From Nitrospirae bacterium MYbinv3 (GTDB lineage: Bacteria; Nitrospirota; Thermodesulfovibrionia; Thermodesulfovibrionales; Magnetobacteriaceae), in contig PEAB01000037.1 in assembly GCA_002753395.1 (NCBI GenBank), forward strand, positions 1 through 33,994: a stretch of 33,994 nt of DNA, in the 5' to 3' direction. Below are positions 32,870-33,994 of the stretch, piece after piece (position 1 is the first letter of the stretch; each line of letters opens with the position of its first letter). The notes under the pieces were generated by a model. The model was not told the origin of the DNA and searched no databases. It saw only the letters and a program-made list of their open reading frames with translations. The position numbers and the translations under genes are program-made.

Positions 32870-33838
32870 TTATGTTATTAATAATCTTTGTACCTCGTGT
32901 AATAGATTGTTGACGTCAAATTTTACGAGGTAACCATCTGCTCCGACGCTTTTGGCTTTTTCCTTGTTTTCCTCACCGCTTAGAGATGTATTTACAATAA
33001 TGGGAAGCACCTTTAGCTTTGGATTGCTCTTTACTGTTTTTGTAAAGGTTAGGCCATCCATCTCAGGCATCTCAACGTCGCTAATTACCAGTTGAATAAA
33101 CTGAGTGATTGACTTATCCCCAATCTTACTCTGAAAATCGTTTAGCACTGCGAGTGCCTGTTTACCGTCTACAGCCTCAAGGATCGAAAGTCCAACGTTT
33201 TCAAGGATATCCTTTAATATCTTCCTTGCAACAGAGGAGTCATCTACGATGAGCACGTTACCGGACATCTTCTTTTTAACGACCATCTTATTAAGATCAT
33301 CTACTGTATAACCCCTTTTGGGAATAAGCGCGCCTATGTCCTGTATGACACTCTCAAGGTCGAGGATGAGCAAGAGATCGTTGCCATCGTCAATCTTGGT
33401 AACACCAGTAATCTTACCTCCGTGCTTTGTCTGTAATAGAGGGGGCGGGGGCTTTATCTTATCCCATTTTATTCTCCTGATCCTCTCAACCTCATGGACG
33501 ATCATACCCACAGTTGTACCGAGCATCTCAAGAACGATCACCTTATGTCTTATGCTGACGGTATCAGGTATGACCAATTTCATCCACTTGCCAAGATCGA
33601 CTATCGGTATAACCTCTCCCCTAACCTCTGCCAGCGATTCAGCGTAGTTTGGCATATCAGGCACCGTCGTTAGATTAGGCATTGGGATGATCTCCCTGAC
33701 CTTAGCCACGTTAACGCCATAATTCCTCGTCTCCTGACTCCCATCTTCAAGATTACAGTACATCTTAAACACCACAAGCTCTAACTCGTTCGTACCAACC
33801 TTTAAAACTTCCGGCAATTTACCGATGCCTTGTGTCAT
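32870..33838 (-). CDS. cheV: CheV: CheW-receiver coupling protein
   Basis: 322 residues from the ATG at 33838, with GGAGG 5 bases upstream; a GTG at 33850 overlaps that site and is rejected. The CheW domain (about 1-165) contains VAKVREIIPMPNLTTVPD and EVRGEVIPIVDLGKW, and the receiver (about 195-322) has VDDSS, phosphoacceptor D254 in VISDVEMPEMDG and Lys in YLVKFDV. The Lys is followed by Phe rather than the usual Pro. CheV joins receptors to CheA and may act as a phosphate sink for adaptation. It is separate from the two che clusters, about 20 kb away, and next to an IS end. TATAAT at 33877-33872 is the likely -10. Confidence 0.95.
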   Translation of the reverse strand: MTQGIGKLPEVLKVGTNELELVVFKMYCNLEDGSQETRNYGVNVAKVREIIPMPNLTTVPDMPNYAESLAEVRGEVIPIVDLGKWMKLVIPDTVSIRHKVIVLEMLGTTVGMIVHEVERIRRIKWDKIKPPPPLLQTKHGGKITGVTKIDDGNDLLLILDLESVIQDIGALIPKRGYTVDDLNKMVVKKKMSGNVLIVDDSSVARKILKDILENVGLSILEAVDGKQALAVLNDFQSKIGDKSITQFIQLVISDVEMPEMDGLTFTKTVKSNPKLKVLPIIVNTSLSGEENKEKAKSVGADGYLVKFDVNNLLHEVQRLLIT

Positions 33839-33921
33839 ATAAACCTCCACACTAAATAGTTAAATAGATTTATTATATAACTTGAGCCTCTTGCAAAACT
33901 CCTAAACGAAAGAAGTTTTAG

Positions 33922-33970
33922 CTCTCCTTATGATAAAATAAGTTTCCCAAACTTAAATCGATAAGGAGAG
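33922..33970 (+). promoter_or_regulatory. Hairpin covering the Shine-Dalgarno of the presumed transposase, with an internal promoter
   Basis: CTCTCCTTAT (33922-33931) and ATAAGGAGAG (33961-33970) are perfect 10-base inverted repeats with 29 bases between. The right arm contains the AAGGAG at 33963-33968 that serves the ATG at 33975. TGATAAAAT at 33931-33939 is a one-mismatch extended -10; its transcript would begin near 33946, inside the loop, and lack the left arm. Read-through RNA from outside would fold and hide the site. Confidence 0.6.
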
Positions 33971-33974
33971 CATC

Positions 33975-33994
33975 ATGTTAAGAGAGAGTATATC
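33975..33994 (+). CDS. Start of presumed transposase, cut by window edge
   Basis: The ATG at 33975 has AAGGAG 6 bases upstream; only MLRESI is visible before the window ends. The position just inside an IS-like terminus suggests a transposase, but six residues cannot show a family. Confidence 0.45.

Follow-up and report, generated by a model that had tools for sequence, protein, structure and literature searches.

The insertion-sequence end and its leader hairpin

The window, that is, the whole stretch of 33,994 nucleotides that was analysed, is one of the 175 contigs (C60) of a draft genome of 3.7 Mb, and it closes on the plus strand with the left end of an IS1182-like insertion sequence (IS; 33884–33994). 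As the contig end cuts the element off, only 111 bases of this multicopy IS are inside the window. They comprise a terminal inverted repeat, GAGCCTCTTGCAAAA (33884–33898, plus strand), a leader, and the first 20 bases of the transposase gene (33975–33994, plus strand; ATG at 33975), which continues in the same frame for 191 amino acids in locus L015 and 369 amino acids in locus L042. A genome search with 33800–33994 gave 40 scored matches (of 121 first-look candidates), most of which start at or near 33884 and many of which sit at contig ends, in keeping with a repeat at which assemblies break. The nearest named relatives come from Candidatus Magnetobacterium casense MYR-1 (eight of the nine loci of a separate search), where a full copy of 1403 bp (L042, 2405–3807) is flanked by ACTG on each side, terminates with the complement of the terminal repeat, and codes for a 369-residue protein with DDE_Tnp_1 and DUF772 domains. 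The genomic matches and this ACTG-flanked copy bear out the initial annotation, which had recognized an IS end. The IS sits 45 bp upstream of a CheV-like reading frame with CheW and response-regulator domains (32870–33838, minus strand) that is directed away from it.

We name the element IS1182-like rather than IS1182, as its nearest named relatives are annotated IS1182 and the corresponding cut-off is missed: the L042 protein scores 75 bits with the NCBIfam IS1182 transposase model (cut-off 270) and 81.5 bits with the IS5_4 model (cut-off 140). Relatives annotated IS1182-like likewise fall under the IS1182 cut-off, at 80–100 bits and with IS1182 as their best model, and plasmid relatives annotated IS1182 or IS1182-like, from Comamonas, Aeromonas (ISUnCu17), and Acinetobacter, are 38–45% identical. 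The Rfam scan of the window gave no match at gathering scores, and no match was obtained in plasmids searched with the IS end as DNA, in phage records searched by protein, or in viral contigs searched with a single M. casense protein; searched with alignment A1, the viral contigs yielded one match. Among elements of the IS1182 family, IS1272 has been studied for its targeting (available text of PMC5678879).

The IS end contains a perfect inverted repeat of 11 bp, in which a left arm, GCTCTCCTTAT (33921–33931, plus strand), is complementary at 11 of 11 positions to a right arm, ATAAGGAGAGC (33961–33971, plus strand), at a distance of 29 nt. The right arm includes the Shine-Dalgarno sequence AAGGAG (33963–33968), which ends 6 nt before the transposase ATG. 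That an inverted repeat covers the Shine-Dalgarno sequence is confirmed; the initial annotation was correct as to its perfection and its position over AAGGAG, and erred in its length, given as 10 bases, since the left arm begins one base earlier, at 33921. A small inner hairpin, AAGTTT-CCC-AAACTT (33940–33954, plus strand), is predicted to fold within the loop. Overall, the 111-nt IS end has a predicted folding energy of −28.1 kcal/mol compared with −15.3 (sd 2.87) in 200 dinucleotide shuffles, none of which folds as well (z −4.46).

The best-scoring hexamer of the window's leader belongs to an extended −10, TGATAAAAT (33931–33939, plus strand), and starts at −41 from the ATG. The first base of this element, 33931, is the last base of the left arm, an overlap that had been described correctly from the outset. 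From its position we infer a transposase RNA that starts inside the hairpin, near 33946, without the left arm. No terminator-like site was found in 33800–33994. A strict two-hexamer sigma-70 scan of the same interval returned no promoter, hence no consensus −35, and the promoter call therefore rests on the extended −10 and on a similar position in relatives. The symmetry of the hairpin allows it to fold on both strands, and it might conceivably belong to an antisense RNA from the other strand, in the manner of the RNA-OUT of IS10, an element subject to antisense as well as Dam control (available text of PMC5006887). Controls of this kind were sought here by one consensus scan, which revealed neither promoter nor terminator on either strand, but the same scan misses the sense promoter; on balance, we consider an antisense assignment extremely unlikely.

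Leaders of related elements

Twenty leaders, each with an IS end and a start codon, were compared. Leaders A–D come from Magnetobacterium, E–G from other genomes of the same phylum, H from an IMG/VR contig, I–P from one other family of the phylum (f28, which we take to be Leptospirillum-like), Q from Comamonas, R from ISUnCu17, S from Acinetobacter, and T from Aliarcobacter. Leader D is represented by L084 in the folding tests and by L078 in alignment A2. Further copies of the same element were excluded, as were degenerate, leaderless, and partial ones, among them L141, L131, L132, L050, L072, and L076; also left out were L080, L082, L086, L032, and L062. The transposases are 31–98% identical (16 of the 20 leaders compared, some of them partial).

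The chosen −10 is located −38 to −48 from the ATG in 19 of the 20 leaders (−55 in T), and 11 of 20 carry the TG of an extended −10. Leaders C, F, and Q have a better-scoring hexamer elsewhere, and the chosen one was used anyway. It is conceivable that the element's own transcript instead starts upstream of the left arm, in which case the hairpin would always be present and would keep transposase low or be opened by some factor, for instance an antisense RNA. A precedent for such an arrangement is ISPpu9, which resembles the window in that a 5′ untranslated structure likely buries the transposase ribosome-binding site, and differs in that this structure resides in the element's own transcript, with an antisense sRNA as its proposed opener (available text of PMC8450116). 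Other hexamers further upstream do exist in our leaders, and in F and Q they outscore the chosen one; however, the best hexamer lies beside or between the arms in 17 of 20, a 17-nt spacer separates the chosen −10 from an upstream hexamer in I, J, and K (among the leaders with TTTACA or TTTACG), and transcripts from the chosen −10 are predicted to be open in most leaders. We thus regard an upstream start as improbable and retain the predicted start between the arms.

Uninterrupted helices, with G-U pairs allowed, were sought between positions −18 to +12 only and the sequence that ends 4 nt downstream of the predicted RNA start. The best helix measures 8–13 bp in 17 of the 20 leaders and 5–6 bp in B, L, and M. 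It covers −14 to −6 in leaders A–G and O–T and the start codon in G–P, and in leaders I–N the own transcript would retain 3–4 nt of the left arm. To the eye, the arms of H, I, N, Q, R, S, and T bear no evident likeness to those of the window, and a comparison of I with N shows one U-A pair replaced by C-G, along with a change of the second codon from AAA to GAA. Such a palindrome, with its arms flanking the −10, reads as a DNA site too, and the inverted repeat might act as DNA, for instance by binding transposase or a repressor over the promoter, RNA pairing being a by-product; the occurrence of C-A mismatches besides G-U among the pair changes is compatible with this. Weighing against a DNA site are a right arm that overlies either the Shine-Dalgarno region or the start codon in 20 of 20 leaders (in a search confined to −18 to +12), the variable arm spacing, and the different arm sequences of elements with related transposases, all of which make it very unlikely compared with pairing in RNA.

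In leaders I–K (L103, L104, and L105), pairing is possible between the Shine-Dalgarno region, AAGGAGGCTC/AAGGAGGCTT, and the tip of the terminal repeat, GAGCCTCTT, which could serve as a second left arm. Pairing of the repeat tip with the Shine-Dalgarno sequence was considered and dropped, not being seen in leaders L–N.

Predicted exposure of the translation start

The cost of opening positions −16 to +5 was computed for the own transcript, starting 7 nt past the −10, and for RNA from IS base 1, without flanking sequence, with 200 shuffles of the upstream part alone as the null. In the window, opening is predicted to cost 4.8 kcal/mol in the own RNA and 16.4 kcal/mol in read-through RNA (z 4.32; 0 of 200 shuffles), consistent with the earlier proposal that read-through RNA, unlike the element's own, folds over the ribosome site. 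Across the 20 leaders, the mean difference is +7.5 kcal/mol and the mean z 3.07; the difference is at least 5 kcal/mol in 15 of 20, and z is at least 3 in nine leaders, at least 2 in 12, and above 0 in 19. The effect is weak or absent in B (L042, with its intact 369-aa transposase; z 0.12), in C (z 0.95), and in the fragmentary copy P (z −0.78). With the RNA start shifted to 5–9 nt past the −10, the mean z ranges from 2.8 to 3.6, and 10–16 of the 20 leaders have a z of at least 2.

By comparison, 55 control genes have a mean z of −0.03, with z at least 3 in none, z at least 2 in three, and a difference of at least 5 kcal/mol in 2 of 55. The z values of the 20 leaders and 55 controls differ with a Mann-Whitney p of 3e-8, uncorrected for kinship among the 20. 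The controls are open frames with a Shine-Dalgarno-like motif rather than verified genes; their RNAs all start at −29, and 100 shuffles were made for each of them. An initial control set, of 68 genes, contained members of the IS group, which accounted for its five highest z values; for the final set, 14 of 69 candidates with a family leader or IS end were removed, leaving 55.

IS10, used as a positive control with an RNA start that we take to be at 81, gives 1.8 versus 12.5 kcal/mol (z 5.2), while IS50 scores between −0.0 and 1.7 (starts 62–70). From the weak score of IS50 it follows that the opening-cost measure misses some described cases. An earlier duplex test, in which bulges and the terminal repeat were allowed and the left arm was cut at the predicted start, had a mixed outcome and was replaced by the opening cost: at most 3 of 500 shuffles were as good in 9 of 20 leaders, and shuffles did as well as L, M, N, and Q.

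To assess the specificity of pairing, upstream halves and transcripts of different elements were combined for 13 of the 20 leaders. The mean added cost is 9.4 kcal/mol for own and 1.9 kcal/mol for swapped halves, and 0 of 100,000 permutations reach the own sum; among the nine more divergent leaders, the values are 9.4 versus 1.1 kcal/mol (1 of 200,000 permutations). An element's own upstream half outperforms all others in 8 of 13 cases, and comes second or third in A, C, E, and Q and sixth in I. Among Shine-Dalgarno-type leaders the halves are partly interchangeable, that of D hiding the window's start as well as D's own.

Seven Shine-Dalgarno-type leaders were further examined for covariation, the check that the initial annotation had proposed for the arms of family leaders. 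Pairing is indeed mostly kept as the sequence changes, with 75.9% of cells pairing versus 45–54% when slid. Both sides change in 5 of 16 pairs, a count that is as high in 20 of 500 shuffles and amounts to 0–3 in slid versions, and in the number of pair types the leaders do not exceed shuffles (231 of 500). The covariation signal is modest by itself, and it is the swap test that bears the weight.

Probable protection from read-through and variation among copies

These comparisons support a model in which the leader confers IS10-like protection of an IS1182-like element from read-through, a reading that we hold to be likely. The observed basis of the model is the anatomy of the leader, the reappearance of this anatomy, with arms of different sequence, in most relatives, and the difference in predicted folding; the inferred portions are the site of the RNA start, the block to translation, and the benefit to the IS. 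The transposase promoter, in the form of the extended −10 (33931–33939), would be situated at the end of the left arm, so that RNA from the element's own promoter (~33946) would contain the right arm only and leave the Shine-Dalgarno sequence and AUG open. RNA entering from a neighboring promoter would contain both arms, fold, and hide the Shine-Dalgarno sequence, and an IS that has landed in a transcribed region would thereby avoid transposase overproduction. As far as the nucleotide sequence goes, both the observation and the logic of the initial annotation appear to be supported.

Read-through protection was elucidated in IS10 and in a small number of other elements; the protection of Tn10 from external promoters and the structures of IS200 are said to be the prototypes. 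Davis, Simons and Kleckner reportedly showed in 1985 that Tn10/IS10 is protected from external promoters by arms that flank its promoter, such that only read-through RNA hides the translation start. The window resembles IS10/Tn10 in the position of the arms on either side of what would be the element's promoter and in a comparable opening-cost behavior, and differs in IS family and arm sequences. In IS50/Tn5, a hairpin near the ribosome site is absent from the element's own transposase RNA, and the effect in the opening-cost test is weak, unlike that in the window. The analogy initially drawn with both the IS10 and IS50 leaders therefore holds for IS10, whose z compares with that of the window (5.2 versus 4.32), and less so for IS50.

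Impinging transcription and mRNA structure are counted among the controls acting on IS elements (available text of PMC8944449). Like the window's hairpin, a stem-loop of IS200 occludes the ribosome-binding site, whereas an additional stem-loop of that element ends impinging transcripts (available text of PMC3196728), and the window is without a terminator-like site in the interval scanned. Many IS elements have 5′ terminators, which share with the present leader the purpose of limiting expression of an IS in a transcribed region but which stop transcription rather than mask the ribosome site (available text of PMC2965389). In the open-access literature searched, we recognized no report of a read-through-protected leader in IS1182-like elements.

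What the present analysis adds is comparative evidence that the layout persists in another IS group through pairing, not sequence. Somewhat more tentatively, we favor the view that the IS1182-like group shares, in several phyla, a general and conserved design for protection from read-through, in which the layout (a left arm, a −10 at about −40, and a right arm over the Shine-Dalgarno sequence or AUG) is kept, the arm sequence would have been repeatedly replaced, and the hidden signal would switch between the Shine-Dalgarno sequence and the start codon, under selection against impinging transcription in most lineages. The comparative data suggest that IS elements are commonly under selective pressure from read-through, an idea that is testable across elements.

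Within the window's own genome, the arms are identical in the best 30 of the 40 matching copies, which, along with the pairing mostly kept in relatives, agrees with the conservation expected of the arms from the start; these 30 copies are nearly identical to each other and hence hardly independent evidence. Three of the 30 vary between the arms, and in two of these three the change falls in the small inner stem and breaks it. The longest nearby open reading frame (at least 90 codons, within 500 bp) points toward the IS in 10 of the 30 copies and away in 19, with none in one; these are frames, not transcripts, and their directions make read-through a plausible exposure for IS copies. Damaged copies of the same genome include one without the left arm (C149) and one without the right arm (C119, L062).

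A natural exception, and with it a built-in comparison, is offered by group B of M. casense, which combines an intact transposase with a weakened hairpin. In its copies (L042, L047, L048, and L049), two left-arm changes break pairs and are uncompensated, despite the intact transposase of L042, a possible sign of decay of the hairpin in this group.

The two genomes also contain rearranged derivatives. A 122-bp repeat without coding room, bearing terminal repeats as in the IS, occurs at L047:680–801 and L010:1427–1548; in M. casense (L047) it has ATGT at either side, in the window's genome (L010) its flanks are unlike each other, and it is likely a non-autonomous (MITE-like) derivative of the IS. 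A 189-bp copy on contig C52 of the window's genome (L041:3087–3275) still has its two ends and the hairpin leader, with some 30 codons left, as in an internally deleted IS. On M. casense contig C10 (L096, reverse strand, 1501 and 1615), a group C copy starts 114 bp inside a group B copy, an arrangement that we read as the insertion of one IS of the group into another just past its leader.
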